NCBI GenBank assembly: GCA_018666295.1 | Contig: JABIZW010000208.1 | Location: forward strand, 1 to 49,875 | DNA from: Halieaceae bacterium | GTDB lineage: Bacteria; Pseudomonadota; Gammaproteobacteria; Pseudomonadales; Halieaceae | DNA length: 49,875 nucleotides | Reading direction: 5' to 3' | Shown here: positions 39,619-49,875 of the stretch, piece after piece | How positions within the stretch are numbered: the stretch's first letter is position 1 | How the letters are laid out: the number at the start of each line of letters is the position of its first letter | Program-made: the position numbers and the translations under genes | The notes under the pieces: generated by a model | What the model saw: only the letters and a program-made list of their open reading frames with translations | Databases searched by the model: none | What the model was told of the DNA's origin: nothing

Positions 39619-41322
39619 TTAATTTTGGTGTGCAATGCCCGCAAAGACAGTACCGACCACCTTGATTGATCGCAATTGATTTATCGGTACGGACAGGGGG
39701 TCGTGGGAAAGAACGGCGAAATCAGCGGCTTTCCCCGCACGAATGGAGCCGATGCTATTTTCCAGACCTAAAATCCACGCGGCGTCAATCGTAACTGCTT
39801 TCAAGGCGCCCATGCGCGTCATGCGCTCTGCTTGCCCGGTACGTTCCCCCGAGAGATTTTCTCGAGCAACCGCGGTCCACATCAATGTCAGTGGCGACAA
39901 CGGAGCCATAGGACTGTCGGAGTGCAGCCCTATTGGAACTCCTTTCTTTTCGAGTGATCCCAGACGCACCATCTGTGGTCCACGATCAGGTCCAAGCCAG
40001 TCCCCGCTGTACATCTCAGAGAGTATGTAGTGATAGTAGGGGTTGGCAGAAACGGCCGCGCCCAGGGCGGCGAGTTTACGATTTTGGTCTTCGGTACTGT
40101 AGGCAAAGTGCTCAAGCGTCATTCTGTGATCGCGCTTGGGGTTTTTTGCAAGCAGGTATTCTAAGAGCTCAATAAATCGAGCCGTTGCTGCATCTCCGTT
40201 GCTGTGTGCGTGGAGCTGAAAACCTGCGTCCCAAAATCGCTCTGCGAATGCCGTGAGATTAGGAATATCGACCATCCAAACACCGCTGTGACCGTCGAGA
40301 TAACCCGGTGCACCCATTTGAGAGAGCCCAGAAAAGATCGCGCCGTCAATCATGAGTTTGAAGTGGTTGCCCACTACGACACGCTCGGTGTTCAGTGCCT
40401 GCCATTCTCGAACTTCATCGAGGGCCTCTTGAGGCGATTGACCACGGGTCATAAAGTCCGTGATGATCGGCGTGAGCAATACACGCACGCCCACTGGATC
40501 TGAGGCTACGGCGGCTCTCACGGCCTTAATTTCCGCAACCGGGTTACCAAAGATGCCCGTGCCCATGTCGGCGGCAGTAGTGACCCCTGATTCGTGCATC
40601 ATGGCGAGGAAGTTTCGCATGCCACGTCCGTAACGCGTGGGCTCAAATAGGAAACCCATTTTTGGAAATACAGCGCGCAGGCCCAGCTCGTAAAAGTGAC
40701 CTCGCTCCCAGTTGGCACCCTCCTCAATGGCGTCAGCGTCAGCTTCAGTCACGCCGAGTAATGCCCAAGCCGCATCGTTACCCACAATTTCGTGAAAGGA
40801 GCGGTGCCAAATCATGACGGGCGTGTCGCCAAACCAAGCGTTCAAGTCTTCACGCCAGACAGGTCCGTGCCACAGCGGATGGTGACCGAAAGCAATAAAC
40901 GGAATACCGGGCGTATCATTTTCCGCCACCAGCTCGTGCAGTTTTTTACGATAATCTTGGGGTGTTCTAGCGCCAGGGAAATCGCCTGTTGGCAGACGCC
41001 AATCATCCGGGGCAAGAAATGGAAACTGGGTAAGCACTGCAGGTAACGTGGGGTGAACGTGCGGGTCAATAAACCCCGGTGTGATGACTGATTGCTCAAA
41101 CTGCCGATCGATTCTTGCGCTGCGGGCCGTAATTAGGGGTTTGAGTGAGTCGAGCGAACCCACCGCAAGGACCTTCCCGTCCTCGACGGCAACCGCAGTC
41201 GCCTCGGGTAGCGCAGGCTCCATTGTGCGGACAAGCTTGGCGGTGTAGACCACCGTCTCTGCACTCACTGTTTGGATCAGACTCAACAGTGATGACAGCA
41301 TAATTATTGTTATGACGCGCAT
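39619..41322 (-). CDS. Secreted YtcJ-like amidohydrolase
   Basis: Signal peptide; SVITPGFIDPHVHPT...QLHAHSNGDAATARFIELLEYL...LHSDSPMAPLSPLTLMWTAVAREN. Confidence 0.88.
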   Translation of the reverse strand: MRVITIIMLSSLLSLIQTVSAETVVYTAKLVRTMEPALPEATAVAVEDGKVLAVGSLDSLKPLITARSARIDRQFEQSVITPGFIDPHVHPTLPAVLTQFPFLAPDDWRLPTGDFPGARTPQDYRKKLHELVAENDTPGIPFIAFGHHPLWHGPVWREDLNAWFGDTPVMIWHRSFHEIVGNDAAWALLGVTEADADAIEEGANWERGHFYELGLRAVFPKMGFLFEPTRYGRGMRNFLAMMHESGVTTAADMGTGIFGNPVAEIKAVRAAVASDPVGVRVLLTPIITDFMTRGQSPQEALDEVREWQALNTERVVVGNHFKLMIDGAIFSGLSQMGAPGYLDGHSGVWMVDIPNLTAFAERFWDAGFQLHAHSNGDAATARFIELLEYLLAKNPKRDHRMTLEHFAYSTEDQNRKLAALGAAVSANPYYHYILSEMYSGDWLGPDRGPQMVRLGSLEKKGVPIGLHSDSPMAPLSPLTLMWTAVARENLSGERTGQAERMTRMGALKAVTIDAAWILGLENSIGSIRAGKAADFAVLSHDPLSVPINQLRSIKVVGTVFAGIAHQN

Positions 41323-41379: not shown

Positions 41380-42789
41380 CTAGCGAAGCACTTTTAGCCA
41401 GTCTCCGGTGCGAGGTTCGCCGCTGGGGTAATAGCCATTAATGAGTCGCAACTGATTTTCCGCGTCGGGCACTCTTATGCCCGAGCTCAGCGAGTCAAAT
41501 GTAGCGCCGCGAGGGACTTGAATGTAATTCAATACGTGACTTTCGCCGCGCTTTTTTTCTTTTGGAAAAAGGGGTCTGAATGACGTGATGATCGTCTTGA
41601 AGGCACTGTCGACTGCATTAAAGTCACCCGCCTCTCCCTCAAATAAGTAGCGAAATCGGTGATCGACGACGCCGAGGCGTTTCTGGTTTCCCGCAGCTGT
41701 TGCGAGCCCCGTTGCGCCCTGTAAGCCTTGGCTCTCAAAGCTTTCTTGCTCATTGACATCACCCGAGGCCAGTGAAGGTAGTGCTACCTCAGGGGTTGCA
41801 TTGGGGTCGATCTTTGCAATTTTAATGGTGAGCATGGCATCTGTGTCCGGCGCACGAGCGATGATTTCTCGCGTTGTTGCACTGACGGTCCAGCCCTCCG
41901 GGTGCTCAAAGGTGAAGTCGAGTTTATTGTGGTAGTAGCGGAGTGGATCGCTTTGCGCTTCAGCGCTGGCGCCGATGACCATGCCGTCAGTTTCACGCCT
42001 AAACCGGCCAGGTAGTTCGGGGTTTTCGGACATCGCGTCAAGGTCGAGCGTGTTGGCTGTCTTGATCACCGTCTGTAGTCTTAGGTCGTTACGCGGGTGA
42101 CTCGCATACAATCCGTGATAAGTTCCAGAGGGTCGTCCAGAGGCTTTTGCCACCGCCTTTTGATAGCGCTCCTGGTCTTTAAGAACCCCAATGACGGATA
42201 ACAGTGCATCTGCGTCATAGCCGCTCTTATGCATAAACTCAGCACCCGCGGCGTCGGCTTCGAGCTCCATATCGCGACCAAACCCTGAGATCAGTTCCGC
42301 CCCATACATATTTGCTGCATCGTACAAGTCACCCGACCCCGTCAGTATCAGTGCGGATACAGCGGCCACTTGGTTGGTGATGGTTTGTGTTTTACGCCGA
42401 GCGTGATGTCGTTCAGTGATATGACCGATCTCATGGGCAATCACTCCGGCCAGCTCTGCTTCGCTGTCGAGATAAGCCAATAGACCGCGATTGATATAAA
42501 TCAAACCGCCGGGTAGAGCGAAGGCATTGATGTCGGGTGAGTCTAACAGTGTGAAGGTAAACTCTTGATCGGGCATGCTTGACGTGCCGACCAACCGGGC
42601 ACCAATTTCATTGACGTAGGCTGCCAGCTCAGGATCATCGTAAATGCCGACATTCTCAATGAGCTTTTCGTGCTCATCGGCGGCTTTCTTGGGCATGCTG
42701 ACCGGTCGCCCACCCACCGTCACTGTGGAGGACCCCGCGCAGCTGGCGAGCAAAGTGGTAATGAACACCGCGGCGATAAGGCGTTTCAT
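41380..42789 (-). CDS. M48-family metalloprotease lipoprotein
   Basis: Lipobox LLASCAG; zinc motif VIAHEIGHITERHHARR; unusual C-terminal half after the protease domain. Confidence 0.92.
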   Translation of the reverse strand: MKRLIAAVFITTLLASCAGSSTVTVGGRPVSMPKKAADEHEKLIENVGIYDDPELAAYVNEIGARLVGTSSMPDQEFTFTLLDSPDINAFALPGGLIYINRGLLAYLDSEAELAGVIAHEIGHITERHHARRKTQTITNQVAAVSALILTGSGDLYDAANMYGAELISGFGRDMELEADAAGAEFMHKSGYDADALLSVIGVLKDQERYQKAVAKASGRPSGTYHGLYASHPRNDLRLQTVIKTANTLDLDAMSENPELPGRFRRETDGMVIGASAEAQSDPLRYYHNKLDFTFEHPEGWTVSATTREIIARAPDTDAMLTIKIAKIDPNATPEVALPSLASGDVNEQESFESQGLQGATGLATAAGNQKRLGVVDHRFRYLFEGEAGDFNAVDSAFKTIITSFRPLFPKEKKRGESHVLNYIQVPRGATFDSLSSGIRVPDAENQLRLINGYYPSGEPRTGDWLKVLR

Positions 42790-42792
42790 GAC

Positions 42793-43452
42793 TCAGGATC
42801 CTGCAGAGAAGTACTGAAGCAACTGGGTGCCCAAACTTTCACACGCGGTATCCTGAACCGGTGCAATGATCGGGATGGGTACAACCACCGCGGGCATGTA
42901 ACTCTGGCCGCTCGTCAGCGCACTCATTTTACCCACCTCTGCGCCGTCGGCGAAGTTCCAGATTGTGGCCTCGTACTCAGACTCGGTGCCCCAAGTGCCA
43001 AATCCGAAGCAACCGGCACCGGTGGGTCCAACCCCGCAGGTCATTGAGCCACTACTGTTGGTCTCCTGCGTGCGTCCGTCAATCCACACCATATAGCTGA
43101 CATTGAGCTCTTGGAGTTTGCCTGCAACGGTAGGTAAGACCATGAGGCGCCCGACACTTTCAATACTCAGTGGCGCGGTTCTGGGTTCAAACCAAGGGTA
43201 TAGAGAATCCACAAACTGCTGTTCGGGAATCACATAGATGCTTTCTGAGCCACGGCTAATGTGCCCGCCAATGCAGTCTATGAAGTCAGGCTCCGTGTCG
43301 TAATCCGGGGCGTGTCGACGACCCAAGACCACTAAACTACCGTCGCGCATACCCGCAGTTGGCGCATCAAAGGTCATCTCGTCAACACTGGCAGTCACAC
43401 AACCGCCGAGCATCGCAACGCTCATCAATAACAAGGGCAAGGCGGACTTCAC
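42793..43452 (-). CDS. Lipoprotein of unknown function
   Basis: Likely GTG start at 43450-43452 (complement), VKSALPLLLMSVAMLGGCVTAS lipobox; 4-nt GTGA overlap with upstream gene; the longer ORF to 43623 is probably spurious. Confidence 0.75.
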   Translation of the reverse strand: MKSALPLLLMSVAMLGGCVTASVDEMTFDAPTAGMRDGSLVVLGRRHAPDYDTEPDFIDCIGGHISRGSESIYVIPEQQFVDSLYPWFEPRTAPLSIESVGRLMVLPTVAGKLQELNVSYMVWIDGRTQETNSSGSMTCGVGPTGAGCFGFGTWGTESEYEATIWNFADGAEVGKMSALTSGQSYMPAVVVPIPIIAPVQDTACESLGTQLLQYFSAGS

Positions 43453-44141
43453 TGCGATTCCTCCGGATTTTCTAACCAGCCCATGACGCCTGGCACGCGA
43501 CCGAAGCTCGTAATGAAGTGAGCACCTGCGTCTCTCAATGCCATAACGGCGGCCAAATTGACGGCATCTGAGTCTGACTGCATGAAGGCTGTGGGTGTTT
43601 TTCCATAGGCGGTCAGTGGCCACTCAGCAAAGGGCTGCATATTGTCGAGGCTGAGTGTCTTTTTGTCGTTGTCTTTGAGCTGCTCGGGCTCAACCAGCCT
43701 GAGTCGGTAACGCATCCAGATCTCATACACTTTGACGTTCGTGTACAGCGGAATCGCGTACTGCACGTCTGCAATTTCAGGCACAAAAACCGCATCGACG
43801 TCGTACGTTTCTAAGTCGTCGTAACTCTCGATGAAGACCACGTTTTGAAAAAACGCCGGCAGTAAGGTGGACCAAAACTGCACCTGTGCAACGCCGGTAC
43901 TCACGCTCCAGCTGACTTCACCACGACCCGTCGCGTCGTCAACCAACTGATGCTCGCGAAATTCCGGTGTGAACACCACACCGAGAGAAACGGGCACAGG
44001 ATCGACCAGCGGTGTTGGGAAGCTTCCATCAACAATCACTTCACGGCTGCTGCACGCGGTAATGAGCGCAAGTGCGAAGAGCGTGTAAAAACGCTTGGCG
44101 CTAGGGCCTGAAATCATTGAGTCCAACAAACGTTCCACCAT
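43449..44141 (-). CDS. Lipoprotein of unknown function
   Basis: Lipobox ALALITACSSRE; overlaps end of the upstream vWA gene; start may be internal (MISGPSAKRF, 44117). Confidence 0.75.
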   Translation of the reverse strand: MVERLLDSMISGPSAKRFYTLFALALITACSSREVIVDGSFPTPLVDPVPVSLGVVFTPEFREHQLVDDATGRGEVSWSVSTGVAQVQFWSTLLPAFFQNVVFIESYDDLETYDVDAVFVPEIADVQYAIPLYTNVKVYEIWMRYRLRLVEPEQLKDNDKKTLSLDNMQPFAEWPLTAYGKTPTAFMQSDSDAVNLAAVMALRDAGAHFITSFGRVPGVMGWLENPEESQ

Positions 44142-45099
44142 TTCGATGCGTCAGTTCCCTCATCAGTGTAGCAAAACGAATGCCCGTGTCCTGCAACTCG
44201 GGCGGCCTAATAAATTGTACGGGGAAGCCGACGGCGTGGATGCGCACACGACGCTCTTGAGTATCGGCCTCGGCATTAAGACGGTCGACCGTCAGCACCA
44301 CGTCCTCAATCGACCGTCCGGTGAATTCGTCGCCGAAAACATAAATTGATATTTTTTTATCACGGTCATAAAAAGAGCGCACGGCCTGTGTAATACCCTC
44401 CACGGGTGACGAATTAGAAAACGCATTCCAATTGGCGAGATTTCTCAGTATCAGCTGTCGTCGTGCCGGTGTATCTGGAATCCATTGCCCAGCGTAGCGA
44501 CTGAAAAGGTAATTACCCATGTCGTTCATGACCTGAATGCCTTTGACATTGGGGTAAATATTAAGGGTCGCTTCCATCTCACTCAGCATCCGCTGCCAGG
44601 CGTACGAAAACATGGAGCCAGAGGTGTCGATGATGAAAATAATGTACTCACTGTCGACGGGAATTCCGCCGATCAGTTGATTCTTTCGCTCTGCATCACG
44701 ACCCAGTAAGCGCTCTTCTTCTTCGCTTAATTCCTGACGCGCAATGGCCAGCTGCTCGGCGACAATACTGTTTGAATTTCGGGTGACTTGAAGGGCGTCG
44801 AAACGTGATTTCGACGATGCCAGTGACCCTTGGAGAATGGCGATCTGCATTTCAAACTCTGAGATTTGTTCGCGTTTTGCCACGAGTTCGCGATTCAAAA
44901 TCTTGGTCTCACCGCGTATCTCAAATAACTGTTCGGTGAGCTCAGACACCTTACCTTCAGCAATCACCGTTGATTCTTCAAGGACCTGCGGCTCGACCGT
45001 CTTGGTGATCATCAGCAGTAAGATCACGGCGCCAAAACCACAGCAGATGACGTCTAAGAATGACAGTGAGATTTCCGGCGCCGGTCTTCGCTTTCGCAT
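44101..45099 (-). CDS. Membrane-anchored coiled-coil/vWA domain protein
   Basis: MRKRRPAPEISLSFLDVICCGFGAVILLLMITKT (one TM, N-in), coiled coil, vWA MIDAS EYIIFIIDTSGSMFSY. Confidence 0.88.
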   Translation of the reverse strand: MRKRRPAPEISLSFLDVICCGFGAVILLLMITKTVEPQVLEESTVIAEGKVSELTEQLFEIRGETKILNRELVAKREQISEFEMQIAILQGSLASSKSRFDALQVTRNSNSIVAEQLAIARQELSEEEERLLGRDAERKNQLIGGIPVDSEYIIFIIDTSGSMFSYAWQRMLSEMEATLNIYPNVKGIQVMNDMGNYLFSRYAGQWIPDTPARRQLILRNLANWNAFSNSSPVEGITQAVRSFYDRDKKISIYVFGDEFTGRSIEDVVLTVDRLNAEADTQERRVRIHAVGFPVQFIRPPELQDTGIRFATLMRELTHRNGGTFVGLNDFRP

Positions 45100-46190
45100 T
45101 ACGGCCAGTCCTTAGCAGGTGCCATGAAACTACCGCCTGAATTTTGTGCAAGCTTCCAGAACTCGGAGGCCGCCATGGGGTCTCCTTCCATGGGTGACAA
45201 GACAACGTTCACGGGTACGCCAGAGGGCAGGGCTTTTAGCGCGTCACGGTAATGTTTTAGCCGCGCCGGCCCTGACACAGTATTTTTCCGTGGCGTTGAT
45301 TTGCCTTGTGTAGGCAGCCCGTCAGTTACCAGAAAAATATTGTCGGGTTTGCTGTCGAGCTCAGATAAGAAGTTAAATGCATTGTGCAGTGATGTTCCGC
45401 CCTCTGGCAGTACATTGCGCACCGCTGAGACGGCACGTTCGACTTGTTCGCTGTCGGCAATTTCAAGCCAGCGACCTTGTGTCTCTGGGAGTGCAAATCG
45501 CGCTTGCGTATTAAACAGTATTAACTGGTACCGCGCGCCGGTCGGAAGTTGGGCCGTTAACCAGTCCACGGTATCGAGCGCTTGAACCCACTTTTTTGAG
45601 CCACGCTGCACCGCTGGCGACTGATTTCGCATGCGGATAACGTTCACCACTTCGGGGGCAAGCATGCTGGCGGACACGTCGATCAATATGGCAATGCGAT
45701 TCCCCCCAAGTTTCAAGCCTGTGAGGTATTGCCGGTTGCCCTCTCCCTGAAACTCGCGTGCACTGCGACCACCATCGGCCTCCGCGGCTTCGCGCAGCTG
45801 CTGAATCCGTTCCTCGAGGACGTTAATTTCGGCCTTTAGGGCGTCAAGATCGGTTGTTTCGCTGACATCGGACTCCTCCAGCGAGGCGACCAAGGCCTCA
45901 AGGCGGCCAAGTTCTTCGGTGACGAGGCGCGCGCGTCCCGTCGCCTCAACAATATCGAGATCCGCACTGCTGACGGCGTTACGTAACCTGACAAGGCCTT
46001 CCTCTCCGTCGCGAATGTCCTCTTCAAGAAGATTGACCTCCGAAAGCACCTCGGCATTTACCGACTGAATCTGAATTTCAATCGAGTGATCAATAATGAG
46101 GAATACCAGTATGACCGCGCCAAACCCACAGGACATCACATCTAAAAAGCTCAGATTAAACGTGTTGGTTTGTCGTTTTCGACGCGGCAT
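45099..46190 (-). CDS. Membrane-anchored coiled-coil/vWA domain protein (paralogue of neighbour)
   Basis: MPRRKRQTNTFNLSFLDVMSCGFGAVILVFLIIDHS, coiled coil, vWA MIDAS IAILIDVSASMLAPE, NIFLVTDGLPTQ. Confidence 0.9.
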   Translation of the reverse strand: MPRRKRQTNTFNLSFLDVMSCGFGAVILVFLIIDHSIEIQIQSVNAEVLSEVNLLEEDIRDGEEGLVRLRNAVSSADLDIVEATGRARLVTEELGRLEALVASLEESDVSETTDLDALKAEINVLEERIQQLREAAEADGGRSAREFQGEGNRQYLTGLKLGGNRIAILIDVSASMLAPEVVNVIRMRNQSPAVQRGSKKWVQALDTVDWLTAQLPTGARYQLILFNTQARFALPETQGRWLEIADSEQVERAVSAVRNVLPEGGTSLHNAFNFLSELDSKPDNIFLVTDGLPTQGKSTPRKNTVSGPARLKHYRDALKALPSGVPVNVVLSPMEGDPMAASEFWKLAQNSGGSFMAPAKDWP

Positions 46191-46192
46191 TT

Positions 46193-47440
46193 TTACGACT
46201 CAACACGAATCAGAAGAGCTTCTTTACCGTCGTCGCGATACAGCCTACTCCCCGTTGTCAGTTGGTCGTGGGAGCCAGAAACCGACAGTACATTAATCCG
46301 GTCTTTAAAATGGTCATCAATACAGACAACACCATTCTGTGAAACAACGCCAAACTCGAACGACACACTTTCTCGGCCTTCAATCGCGTGAGCGGTGGTG
46401 TCGATCAGTAAGTGTGTCGGTGGGCTGTGCTGTCGGGCTCTGGCGTCCAGATCGGGAAATCGAGTCTGGCTGCGCGGTTGCTGTATGGGAGCGGGCTCAG
46501 GGCTGACTTCAGGACTGAGCGCGCAGCTGGTAATCCGAGATAACGGTGCTTGAGCAGTCGTGCCGTCAAGAATAGCGCTTGCGGCTTCTGTTAGTGACGC
46601 TTGCGTCGTGACTGAGTCAAAAGTCATTCCTGGAAAAACAGACAGGGACGCGTCGATACTGATGGATTTTCCATCCGTATCCACAGCGTCAAGTACCCGC
46701 TGACCGACTCTTTTTAGCGCATCTCGCGCGACCTTGAACGTATAGGATTCGACCTCTACCGAGAGCTCGTTGTCATCAGTCTGCGATGCCAGTAGACCTA
46801 CAATGGCACTTAAAAGCGTTTGCTCGGAGGCGGCACTTCTTCGTGGATCAAAGCGGGTTTGCGCCACGCAGGCGTCAGCAAAATGTTCAAGACAGTCTTC
46901 AAGTAAATCTAAATAGCCAAGACCTGGGATGGCGGTGGTCTTGAGCACGCAGAGGCGTTGGTCCACCTGCTCGAGTTCGGTGACGACGAGCTGCCGCCAT
47001 TGAAGGCTGAGGTTCAGGCCGGGAGCTGACTGGTTTGCGTGTGCAAGCAACGCCCGATCGACGACAGCGCTGGGCTCGATGTTTAAGGCACTAAGAATGC
47101 CAAGCAGCAGTTCGAGTTGCGTCTGATTCATATTGCTCGGTGCAATGATGCACAGATCATGCAGATACTCTGGATTGGGCATCAATGACTTGAGGTGCTC
47201 ATAGACCAGGTCGGCGGTGTGTCGTGCGCTTCCAAACTGAGCGCTCAGTGGCGTGGTCGACAGCTGGCTCCAATAGTCCGACTTTACGTCAAGCGGGCGA
47301 CGTTTGAGTTGTGAAACAGCGGGCTCCCCGAAGTAAAGCGCGCCAGAATCTGAAAGGACAGCACCGGGAGAGGATATAACCTCGTCCTCGGCAGTGAGAC
47401 TTAGGCTGGTGTCATTGACGTCGAGAAAAACTGGGCTCAT
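46193..47440 (-). CDS. Divergent actin/Hsp70-fold protein (putative)
   Basis: N-terminal VFLDVNDTSLSL (phosphate-1-like), YEHLKSL...DLCIIAPSNMNQTQLELLLGILSALNIEPSAVVDRALLAH, C-terminal LSVFPGMTFDSVTTQASLTEA (adenosine-motif-like); no other recognisable domain. Confidence 0.6.
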   Translation of the reverse strand: MSPVFLDVNDTSLSLTAEDEVISSPGAVLSDSGALYFGEPAVSQLKRRPLDVKSDYWSQLSTTPLSAQFGSARHTADLVYEHLKSLMPNPEYLHDLCIIAPSNMNQTQLELLLGILSALNIEPSAVVDRALLAHANQSAPGLNLSLQWRQLVVTELEQVDQRLCVLKTTAIPGLGYLDLLEDCLEHFADACVAQTRFDPRRSAASEQTLLSAIVGLLASQTDDNELSVEVESYTFKVARDALKRVGQRVLDAVDTDGKSISIDASLSVFPGMTFDSVTTQASLTEAASAILDGTTAQAPLSRITSCALSPEVSPEPAPIQQPRSQTRFPDLDARARQHSPPTHLLIDTTAHAIEGRESVSFEFGVVSQNGVVCIDDHFKDRINVLSVSGSHDQLTTGSRLYRDDGKEALLIRVES

Positions 47441-48240
47441 TTGGGCGCTGCCAAATGTCGGATGAGCTTTTTGTCGATGTAACGTTGCGTACTCAGTACT
47501 AAACGCTCTTGCGACAGCTGTAGCTGATGCAGCGCGAACATGATGATGATCGAGAGCACTAATGCGACGAAGGTACTGTTAAACGCCACACCAAGACTCA
47601 CTGTCACCCCCGAGATATCGCCCTCTACGGCTTTGTACGCTTGCCCTAAAGCATCGCCAATACCACGTACCGTTCCGATAAAACCGATGGATGGAATTGC
47701 CCAGCTGATGTAACGCACCATTGATAACTCCGAATCGAGCTTATCCGCTTCGATGTCGCACTGCTCGCGTACTGCTTCCGATACCGCAGGAATACTGGCG
47801 GTGGTCGAAAATCGACTGAGTGCATTCAAGAGTGTGCGGGGAAGCAGCAGTTCCTGATCGGCCTCGGGCAGGGCTTCTAGGCCTCGCGAATAGCTGCGTG
47901 CATCCTGCGGGAGTACCGTGGTCCCTGTGGTGACCTCGATCAGGTTTCTGTCGAGCATGGCGGCCTCCTGACGCGTCATCCAGGCTTTGAGACCCATGAT
48001 CGCCAACGCCCAGATCATCAAAATGAAGCAGGCTTCTTGTTCAAAGTCTCGAATCACGACGAAGAGTGATCGCTCGGGCACAAAGGCCTCGCCAGAGGCC
48101 TGTAGCGCTGCTTGGATTGTCAGTTGTGCGTCTGCAGAGGGGCGAATCAGCCCCACATAAAATCCGTGAACGATGATGACCGCCGCGAGAAGTGCTATGA
48201 GCTGGAAGGCGAATTCGGAAGGAAGTTTCGACTTAGACAT
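47437..48240 (-). CDS. MotA/TolQ/ExbB proton-channel family protein
   Basis: SWAIPSIGFIGTVRGIGDALGQAYKAVEGDISGVTVSLGVAFNSTFVALVLSIIIMFALHQLQ, typical ExbB/TolQ channel core; additional N-terminal TMs. Confidence 0.9.
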   Translation of the reverse strand: MSKSKLPSEFAFQLIALLAAVIIVHGFYVGLIRPSADAQLTIQAALQASGEAFVPERSLFVVIRDFEQEACFILMIWALAIMGLKAWMTRQEAAMLDRNLIEVTTGTTVLPQDARSYSRGLEALPEADQELLLPRTLLNALSRFSTTASIPAVSEAVREQCDIEADKLDSELSMVRYISWAIPSIGFIGTVRGIGDALGQAYKAVEGDISGVTVSLGVAFNSTFVALVLSIIIMFALHQLQLSQERLVLSTQRYIDKKLIRHLAAPK

Positions 48241-48251
48241 GCAGTACGGCC

Positions 48252-48503
48252 TCAGATATCAACGGGGAAAGAAACTGAGCGATCTTCAGAAATACGTTCA
48301 GTTGGCGTGTAGGTGTCCACCGCCTGTGATGCGGATTCGCTGCTGGGTGACTCTGACGGTGTTATAGGTTCCGCTGACTCCAAAGCGCCCTGTACCGCTT
48401 CGTCATTCGCCTCCGGCGACGGATCTGTTGCAGGCTCCTGCGCCGTGGCACTGGCCGCCAACACCACTGCAAAAACGACACCTCGCCAACGCTTACTCTG
48501 CAT
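48252..48503 (-). CDS. Small secreted Pro/Ser/Glu-rich protein of unknown function
   Basis: Likely start MQSKRWRGVVFAVVLAASATAQEPATDPSPEAND... (48503); start codon overlaps the end of the upstream gene. Confidence 0.6.
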   Translation of the reverse strand: MQSKRWRGVVFAVVLAASATAQEPATDPSPEANDEAVQGALESAEPITPSESPSSESASQAVDTYTPTERISEDRSVSFPVDI

Positions 48504-49875
48504 ATTTCGCCACCCTAAATCCAACATCATCTCGTCCCCGCTCACCATAATCTCTATAGGTCAGTCGGAGTTCTCTCAGTCTACTTAAGCTCCAACTCGC
48601 ACCGCGTATTGTGTAATTGTCTCCCTGGTTATCGCCCATTGGATTTTCTGCCACGGACTCGCCGGGGACGGCAATGCGATATACATCGTTCACCCACTCT
48701 GCGACGTTACCACCCATATCGTAAAGCCCTCGGGGATTTGGTGGAAACTTCCCTACCTCGGCACTCACTGGTGCGTTGTCTGAATAGCCATTGAGTATTC
48801 GTCCGGTGACAATGGCGGATGACGCGTCGGCGAGATTGGCAGCACCGTTTTCAGGCGGCCAAGCGTCGCCCCACGCAAATCGCCGTGTCACACCCTCATG
48901 GAGGCGCGAAGCGAATGCCCACTCGGCCTCTGTGGGCAAGCGATAACCCTGACTCGACGCATTGAAACCCGTAATGATCCCGTCTTTTTCCGTGTAAAAC
49001 GCGGCGAGGCCTTCTCGCGCACTCAGCCAGTTGCAGAAACTTGCCGCTTGCTGCCAAGAGAGCTGAACCGCCGGTTGATGTTCTCTGTTTAGGCTTTTAC
49101 CACCCGCCTGTCCGGACTCGTGGTTACGCGTGAATTGACGAAATTGCGCATTCGTCACTTCGGTCGATGACAGGTAAAAGGCACGGGTGAGCGCGACCGG
49201 TCGTTCAACTTCATTGGCGCCACGACCGGCGTCACGCCGTGGTGCGCCCATGGTGAATTCATTGGTGGCGCCAACCATTGGGTCAATTAACAGCAGTGTT
49301 TGACCCAGTGAGGTTGTCATTTCGGGTTTGATCGCGGCTTTTCGAGCCTCCTCAATCGTGAGGAGGCCAACTTTAATGCGCTGCTTTAGCCCCGCACGGG
49401 GTGTCACTCGACGCTCAACACTGGCATAGCCTGGCGCGGCTATGGTGATCACCTGTTCCACTGAGGGGAGGGAAAGGATCTGATTCCCGGCGCCGCGATC
49501 TTCGCCATTCACAGCGACGGTTGCATTGTCCGGTGCGACCTGAACGTCGACCTCACCCAATGCGGGCAAGAGAACGATCTGTCGTTGCGTGACGACGCCT
49601 TTTTCCAAAGCAAGCGCAAAAGTGGCCGGTAAATAACCGGCTCGACTGAGGTTAAAGCGGTGTGTTGTTGAAGGATCCATGGCAACGTCAACAGGCGTCG
49701 CCCCGACAAAACGTCCGTCACGCGTCACCACAGCACCCATTGGGACCGAGGATAGACGCAGAAGTCCCGCTGCCGGTGTGAGTTCAACGCGGCCGAGGTC
49801 AAGGTCAGTGTTGGCCACCGCGTCAACTGAAATGACTTCATCGACGTAGCCCGCGGCGCTGAGCGTAATGTCACG
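48493..49875 (-). CDS. PEGA-repeat + SUMF1/FGE-sulfatase-like protein (N-terminus beyond window end)
   Basis: PEGA-like repeats (LLRLSSVPMGAVVTRDGRFVGATPVDVAM; VDVQVAPDNATVAVNGEDRG) and FGE domain (TMGAPRRDAGRGANEVERPVALTRAFYLSSTEVTNAQFRQFTR...YRLPTEAEWAFASR...GLYDMGGNVAEWVNDVY...RGASW...VGFRVAKY). Confidence 0.9.
   Translation of the reverse strand, partial: RDITLSAAGYVDEVISVDAVANTDLDLGRVELTPAAGLLRLSSVPMGAVVTRDGRFVGATPVDVAMDPSTTHRFNLSRAGYLPATFALALEKGVVTQRQIVLLPALGEVDVQVAPDNATVAVNGEDRGAGNQILSLPSVEQVITIAAPGYASVERRVTPRAGLKQRIKVGLLTIEEARKAAIKPEMTTSLGQTLLLIDPMVGATNEFTMGAPRRDAGRGANEVERPVALTRAFYLSSTEVTNAQFRQFTRNHESGQAGGKSLNREHQPAVQLSWQQAASFCNWLSAREGLAAFYTEKDGIITGFNASSQGYRLPTEAEWAFASRLHEGVTRRFAWGDAWPPENGAANLADASSAIVTGRILNGYSDNAPVSAEVGKFPPNPRGLYDMGGNVAEWVNDVYRIAVPGESVAENPMGDNQGDNYTIRGASWSLSRLRELRLTYRDYGERGRDDVGFRVAKYAE

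Follow-up and report, generated by a model that had tools for sequence, protein, structure and literature searches.

A conserved envelope gene cluster of a Halieaceae bacterium predicted to encode a trans-envelope motor with two vWA axle proteins

Gene organization of the cluster

Contig JABIZW010000208.1 of a Halieaceae bacterium (assembly GCA_018666295.1), analysed here over its entire length of 49,875 nt (the window, positions 1-49875), belongs to a genome of 2.26 Mb with an estimated completeness of 94%. It carries nine open reading frames (ORFs) on the minus strand, spanning nt 41380-49875, which probably encode an envelope machine driven by the proton motive force (PMF), with a TolQ-like channel and two different von Willebrand factor A (vWA) proteins at its core. 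In the order of transcription, with the smaller features placed below the gene to which they belong, the cluster consists of the following:

48493-49875, minus strand: PEGA-FGE, with C-terminal PEGA repeats and an FGE domain (Pfam PEGA 3e-17, FGE 7e-40)
48252-48503, minus strand: SEC98, a small exported protein with the conserved C-terminal end [FY].P[ST]E....D..VsFP.DI
48255-48302, minus strand: conserved C-terminal peptide of SEC98, TERISEDRSVSFPVDI
47437-48240, minus strand: ExbB/TolQ/MotA-type channel subunit (ExbB below; Pfam MotA_ExbB 1e-13)
46193-47440, minus strand: ACT, a Hsp70/actin-fold domain (residues about 1-310) followed by an FHA-like domain (about 338-415)
46193-46429, minus strand: C-terminal FHA-like domain of ACT
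45099-46190, minus strand: vWA1, with one transmembrane helix (FLDVMSCGFGA), a coiled coil and a periplasmic vWA domain with residues of the metal ion-dependent adhesion site (MIDAS; Pfam VWA_2 1.5e-7)
46140-46142, minus strand: transpore-helix aspartate D17 of vWA1
44101-45099, minus strand: vWA2, the putative second axle subunit, with the layout of vWA1
45052-45054, minus strand: transpore-helix aspartate D16 of vWA2
43449-44117, minus strand: LP1, a predicted lipoprotein with an invariant lipobox cysteine
42793-43452, minus strand: LP2, a predicted lipoprotein whose model is CsgG/PelC-like
41380-42789, minus strand: M48-family lipoprotein protease (HEIGH; Pfam 8e-34)

The initial annotation had described nine tightly coupled minus-strand genes, all of which were recovered at the same positions, and the junctions agreed with that description. 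PEGA-FGE overlapped SEC98 by 11 nt if the latter starts at 48503, SEC98 and ExbB were 11 nt apart, ExbB and ACT overlapped by 4 nt, ACT and vWA1 were separated by 2 nt, vWA1 and vWA2 overlapped by 1 nt, vWA2 and LP1 by either 17 or 41 nt, according to which start is chosen, LP1 and LP2 by 4 nt, and LP2 and M48 were separated by 3 nt. The same gene order was found across 143 distinct related loci, with median gaps that ranged from -8 to +22 nt over all junctions; this recurrence of both order and short junctions indicates that the coupling is not due to chance. The nine genes thus stood as annotated, except that the operon does not begin with PEGA-FGE, as three further conserved genes precede it in relatives. 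The PEGA-FGE gene itself is present but not complete, being clipped by the end of the contig, so that about 230 N-terminal residues are absent compared with the approximately 690 aa of its relatives.

The three upstream genes were designated X, LPX, and TPR. X encodes a secreted small protein with the conserved end VARQ[LI]REAA...REKLW.EYRKYK, LPX a lipoprotein of about 400 aa, and TPR a protein of about 500 aa possessing a cytoplasmic tail, a transmembrane helix and then periplasmic TPRs. Among loci with enough flanking sequence, X was present in 17/20, LPX in 95/98, and TPR in 105/106. A search of the window's genome recovered none of the three operon genes in the assembly, and no TPR gene at any place. 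The only LPX-like sequence, with 30% identity along a portion of the protein, was encoded by itself outside the operon on another contig of the same genome (C194; L181:2584-3675), and had a signal peptide and no obvious lipobox.

Channel subunit and paired vWA proteins

The channel protein matched the NCBIfam tolQ model at 8e-7, which is below that model's cut-off, and its profile matched E. coli TolQ in the PDB with an E value of 0.012. Residues T190 and T223 were invariant (125/125) and T213 nearly so. vWA1 and vWA2 are encoded by two different, adjacent genes and have one N-terminal transmembrane helix each; an aspartate within this helix was kept in 138/139 vWA1 and 143/143 vWA2 sequences, and both proteins retained the MIDAS residues in full. 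Scans with Pfam and NCBIfam detected no ExbD, TolR or MotB in the operon, whereas three other ExbBD/TolQR sets were present elsewhere in the genome, with ExbD beside its own ExbB. Comparison of the vWA2 profile with PDB sequences gave coiled-coil or chance matches only. Because the transmembrane aspartate is invariant and no ExbD/TolR is encoded in the operon, the two vWA sequences are most readily interpreted as those of an axle of the ExbD/MotB type. The PMF-type channel, the two membrane-anchored vWA proteins and the cytosolic actin/Hsp70-fold protein of the initial annotation were therefore all retained, and its view of the vWA proteins as only periplasmic was not.

With the 5:2 motors ExbBD, TolQR, and MotAB, the cluster shares the MotA_ExbB channel family, the conserved threonines and an aspartate in the axle helix; it differs in that the axle subunits would be two distinct proteins, both with vWA domains. 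Such an arrangement was predicted in 2025 (PMC12204202, section 8 and legend of Fig. 4c-d, with Idiomarina loihiensis as query), where heterologous TPH-vWA pairs beside tolQ-like genes lacking tolR/exbD were proposed to rotate within the pentamer. We take the operon to be a member of this TPH-vWA/TolQ-like family by architecture, as compared through the published description: the pair of genes for membrane-anchored vWA proteins next to a tolQ-like gene, the TPH aspartate, the threonine ring of the channel, and the occurrence in Proteobacteria and beyond are the same. The TPR gene mentioned in that paper belongs to its other vWA family, and PEGA-FGE, ACT, SEC98, LPX, LP1, LP2, and M48 are not discussed in its main text. 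The literature yielded no second description of the cluster, and scans with Pfam, NCBIfam, and PADLOC gave no named system that fits the operon. The remark that the gene set was not recognised as a named system thus no longer applies to the motor core, a predicted family since 2025, and still applies to the other parts, the putative docking protein and the purpose. The motor core had already been predicted; the extended parts list and the idea of docking by ACT, described below, are new.

Alternatively, the vWA proteins may act outside the ExbB pentamer as force transducers resembling TonB or TolA, with a separate ExbD-type axle from elsewhere occupying the pore. This role has been proposed for the separate vWA transducer family bearing an SHLS motif (PMC12204202), and ExbD genes do exist elsewhere in the genome. 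However, both transmembrane helices carry the invariant aspartate, as do ExbD and MotB, the TPH-vWA pair family lacks SHLS as published, and the ExbD genes outside the operon adjoin their own ExbB genes, which makes this alternative quite improbable. Assignment to Tol-Pal or TonB was rejected, as the Pfam and NCBIfam scans found neither ExbD/TolR nor a TolA/TonB C-terminal domain in the operon.

Conservation and distribution

vWA2 was the most conserved protein of the set. It was found in 76/81 genomes of the same family (62/64 among the good ones), and strong matches occurred in about 27/369 genomes of the class, while vWA1 was found in 44/196 genomes of the same order, with the second vWA gene adjoining in nearly all. 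The closest named relatives were Halieaceae metagenome genomes with 94-95% identity in vWA2. Forty further loci of the order had all nine genes with the order kept, contig ends apart; ACT was missing once and M48 was undetected in several of them. Outside the class, the vWA2 profile reached Desulfobacterota, including Eth-SRB2 (291-kb contig), a member of Desulfobacteraceae in whose class about 11/148 genomes had strong matches. Single genomes of a Myxococcales, a Vicinamibacteria, and a Kiritimatiellia, labelled Myxococcota, Acidobacteriota, and Kiritimatiellota, also carried the set, each case being one contig of 20-26 kb. In the vWA2 tree, the rows from outside Gammaproteobacteria were nested among gammaproteobacterial ones, a placement that would fit horizontal transfer.

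The gene set therefore co-occurs in several phyla, far beyond close relatives, which answers the question of conserved neighbourhood raised in the initial annotation. Profiles of the neighbourhoods defined a cross-phylum core of PEGA-FGE, SEC98, ExbB, ACT, vWA1, and vWA2, whereas LP1, LP2, and M48 were mostly gammaproteobacterial; the latter three are a gammaproteobacterial add-on outside the core, and the nine genes do not form one set to the extent first supposed. Some rearrangements were observed, namely an ExbB gene moved behind vWA2 with linkage retained (L166 and L169) and a PEGA-FGE gene inverted downstream (L129).

These distributions bear on two other explanations. One holds that the transcript merely combines separate envelope functions, i.e., a motor, a structural FGE protein, and lipoprotein maintenance with M48. 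The absence of LP1-LP2-M48 from most phyla and the loss of ACT in several lineages would agree with it, but LPX, TPR, PEGA-FGE, ExbB, and both vWA genes stay together across phyla and their linkage survives the reordering just mentioned, and we regard it as unlikely. The other is a Zorya-like anti-phage motor sensing perturbation of the envelope, which would belong to the same motor superfamily and to which a weak ZorA2 match (E 0.013) points. It is highly improbable, since the operon has no nuclease or helicase effector, PADLOC gave no other convincing match, and the near-universal presence in the family is unlike that of patchy defence islands. Membership in Zorya, in which ZorA/ZorB are accompanied by ZorC/D or ZorE effectors, was rejected, and anti-phage defence in general was set aside as unlikely.

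ACT and the cytoplasmic tails

The AlphaFold2 model of ACT (pLDDT 88.5) had Ssz1 and DnaK as its best Foldseek matches (E about 1e-14). The Hsp70 fold is present, the GT and GGGT phosphate loops are, in our reading, absent from the aligned consensus, and an FHA-like domain occupies the place where the substrate-binding domain of Hsp70 would be. FHA profiles matched 4/47 ACT homologues, with a best value of 1.4e-11 and a value of 1.6e-8 for L143, whereas the copy encoded in the window was below detection. ACT is best interpreted as a pseudo-ATPase of the Hsp70 fold that carries a putative FHA domain.

ACT was absent from L070, L136, L139-L141, L148, L152-L154, L156, L171, L172, L174, L175, L178, and L179. 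When 13 genomes with ACT-less loci were searched whole, 10 had no ACT at all, two (G107 and G159) had a second operon bearing ACT, and one (G501) had a marginal C-terminal ACT match only, on another contig. In G159 and G107, the ACT-less loci L178 and L179, respectively, were divergent second copies of the operon beside a standard ACT-bearing copy. In one ACT-less clade, an N-terminal domain of PEGA-FGE aligned to the C-terminal domain of ACT (hhalign 91%, versus 0.1-0.3% for four unrelated alignments), in an alignment that includes L098, which has ACT. In L098, L158, L161, and L165, ACT coexists with a PEGA-FGE protein whose N-terminal part is an FHA-like domain, and these loci may be intermediates between the two layouts.

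Full-length relatives of PEGA-FGE consist of a cytoplasmic tail, one transmembrane helix, PEGA repeats, and the FGE domain. The tail contained the motif [ILV]xPxx[FY], in some cases slightly altered, in 96/98 ACT-bearing loci, compared with 15.7 expected after shuffling for this relaxed form, and the strict form in 80/98; the motif was found in 0/10 ACT-less loci. Among 15 ACT-bearing loci fetched after the idea arose, 11 had the strict motif. A similar motif occurred in the TPR tail, with the strict form in 32/88 ACT-bearing loci (4 expected) and in 0/7 ACT-less loci. Since the PEGA-FGE motif was kept in L158, L161, and L165, where the FHA domain and ACT coexist, it tracks ACT and not FHA. 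On the vWA2 tree the ACT state changes three times, and the motif changes with it; well-supported branches force two of these events.

This co-occurrence with ACT, and the loss without it, suggests docking comparable to that in FtsA-FtsN and PilM-PilN, in which actin-fold proteins bind the tails of bitopic partners (PMC7613929). By analogy, ACT would be an actin-fold cytosolic protein that holds a bitopic partner by its short tail; it differs from these precedents in resembling Hsp70, in its degenerate nucleotide motifs, in its FHA-like domain, and in that its binding is a prediction. In L158, L161, and L165 the TPR protein began with a kinase domain of the Ser/Thr type (Pkinase, 4e-29 to 5e-41), and weaker, probably degenerate, TPR-linked kinase domains occurred in L130 and L135. 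Such kinase-TPR fusions in FHA-bearing systems make phospho-control of the motor possible.

PEGA-FGE, SEC98, lipoproteins, and M48

Catalytic FGEs need two active-site cysteines. PEGA-FGE had a single cysteine within its last 260 residues in 104/119 sequences, and catalytic FGE activity was rejected for want of the cysteine pair. The nearest NCBIfam models of its FGE domain were GldK/PorK, with 100-128 bits for GldK against a cut-off of 350. The C-terminal peptide of SEC98 was conserved across phyla. LP1 and LP2 had no Pfam match, and the LP1 profile gave coiled-coil or chance matches only against PDB sequences. The AlphaFold2 model of LP2 (pLDDT 83) was CsgG/PelC-like in Foldseek (E 2e-5, TM-score about 0.4), a fold seen in outer-membrane lipoproteins that form rings for export. 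The M48 protein resembled BepA in its N-terminal half only, and identity with BepA or LoiP was rejected on scores below the NCBIfam cut-offs (113 versus 570 bits and 37 versus 365 bits, respectively).

The likeness to GldK raises the possibility of a motor for gliding, surface translocation or secretion that resembles Agl-Glt or the motor of type 9 secretion. In type 9 secretion GldKLMN, a motor likewise lies beside an FGE-domain protein; here the FGE protein is bitopic with PEGA repeats instead of an outer-membrane lipoprotein, GldM and GldN were not found, and the putative axle is of the vWA type. Agl-Glt has a TolQ-like subunit with two axle genes, and the FHA-bearing bitopic protein GltG recalls the FHA-transmembrane-periplasm architecture seen here (PMC3169522), but AglQ/AglS belong to the ExbD family without vWA, and the C-terminal part of GltG is a TonB domain. 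Both systems include TPR proteins. Given that the Pfam and NCBIfam scans found no GldM/GldN, TonB domain, GltH or GltI, and that GldK scored far below its cut-off, such a motor is an unlikely explanation. The cluster was accordingly identified neither with the type 9 secretion motor (GldK under its curated cut-off, no GldM/GldN in the scans) nor with the Agl-Glt machinery (no TonB or ExbD domain in the operon proteins).

Proposed machine

The operon is read here, with a probability of roughly 0.6, as a PMF-driven trans-envelope machine with a hetero-dimeric vWA axle and arms gripped by ACT. In this scheme, the helices of vWA1 and vWA2 would form a hetero-dimeric axle inside the ExbB pentamer, in agreement with the published prediction, and ion flow would turn or rock the periplasmic vWA pair. 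Bitopic PEGA-FGE and the bitopic TPR protein, encoded upstream and off the contig, may serve as stationary arms that ACT grips in the cytoplasm via their [ILV]xPxx[FY] tails, like PilM-PilN or FtsA-FtsN. Outer-membrane lipoproteins would be engaged by the vWA pair, possibly with the help of the SEC98 tail acting as a ligand; these would be LPX in all lineages, joined in Gammaproteobacteria by LP1 and by LP2 with its CsgG/PelC-like fold. M48, also a lipoprotein, would be a quality-control protease.

Several points weigh against this scheme. It was drawn from sequences and single-protein models; the FHA residues are degenerate in the window's own ACT; the likeness of LP2 to CsgG/PelC is at the level of fold only (TM-score about 0.4); the regular expression for the tail motif was loosened after inspection of the sequences; the link between motif and ACT involves so few independent events that a sign test cannot reach significance; and the assembly contains neither the tail of the PEGA-FGE protein encoded in the window nor the genes expected upstream of it.

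The least certain step is the output. With low confidence, we favour a motor that does mechanical work on the outer membrane and its lipoproteins, helping to assemble, export or attach a surface component, over import of the TonB type. A tentative reading, less likely than not, is that the cluster represents a distinct trans-envelope rotary class, found in several phyla and belonging to the core of entire marine families within Gammaproteobacteria, in which a vWA hetero-axle would work on outer-membrane lipoproteins and a cytoplasmic Hsp70-fold/FHA clutch would grip two arms by a shared motif, such that the motor is engaged or released. In some lineages the TPR arm of this clutch system is fused to a Ser/Thr kinase. 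Proton-driven 5:2 motors with known outputs are few, i.e., flagella, Ton, Tol, type 9 secretion/gliding, Agl-Glt, and Zorya. Here a complete parts list can be stated for one such predicted motor, which most members of a large marine family possess and which extends across phyla. The list offers candidates for the partners missing from the 2025 prediction of vWA motors and includes a cytoplasmic pseudo-Hsp70 that could serve as anchor or clutch. If the scheme holds, it would open a new envelope process to genetics.

Downstream gene

The gene after M48 encoded an amidohydrolase (nt 39619-41322) and was 57 nt away. It followed the operon in only two related loci, L033 and L036, and was therefore excluded from it.

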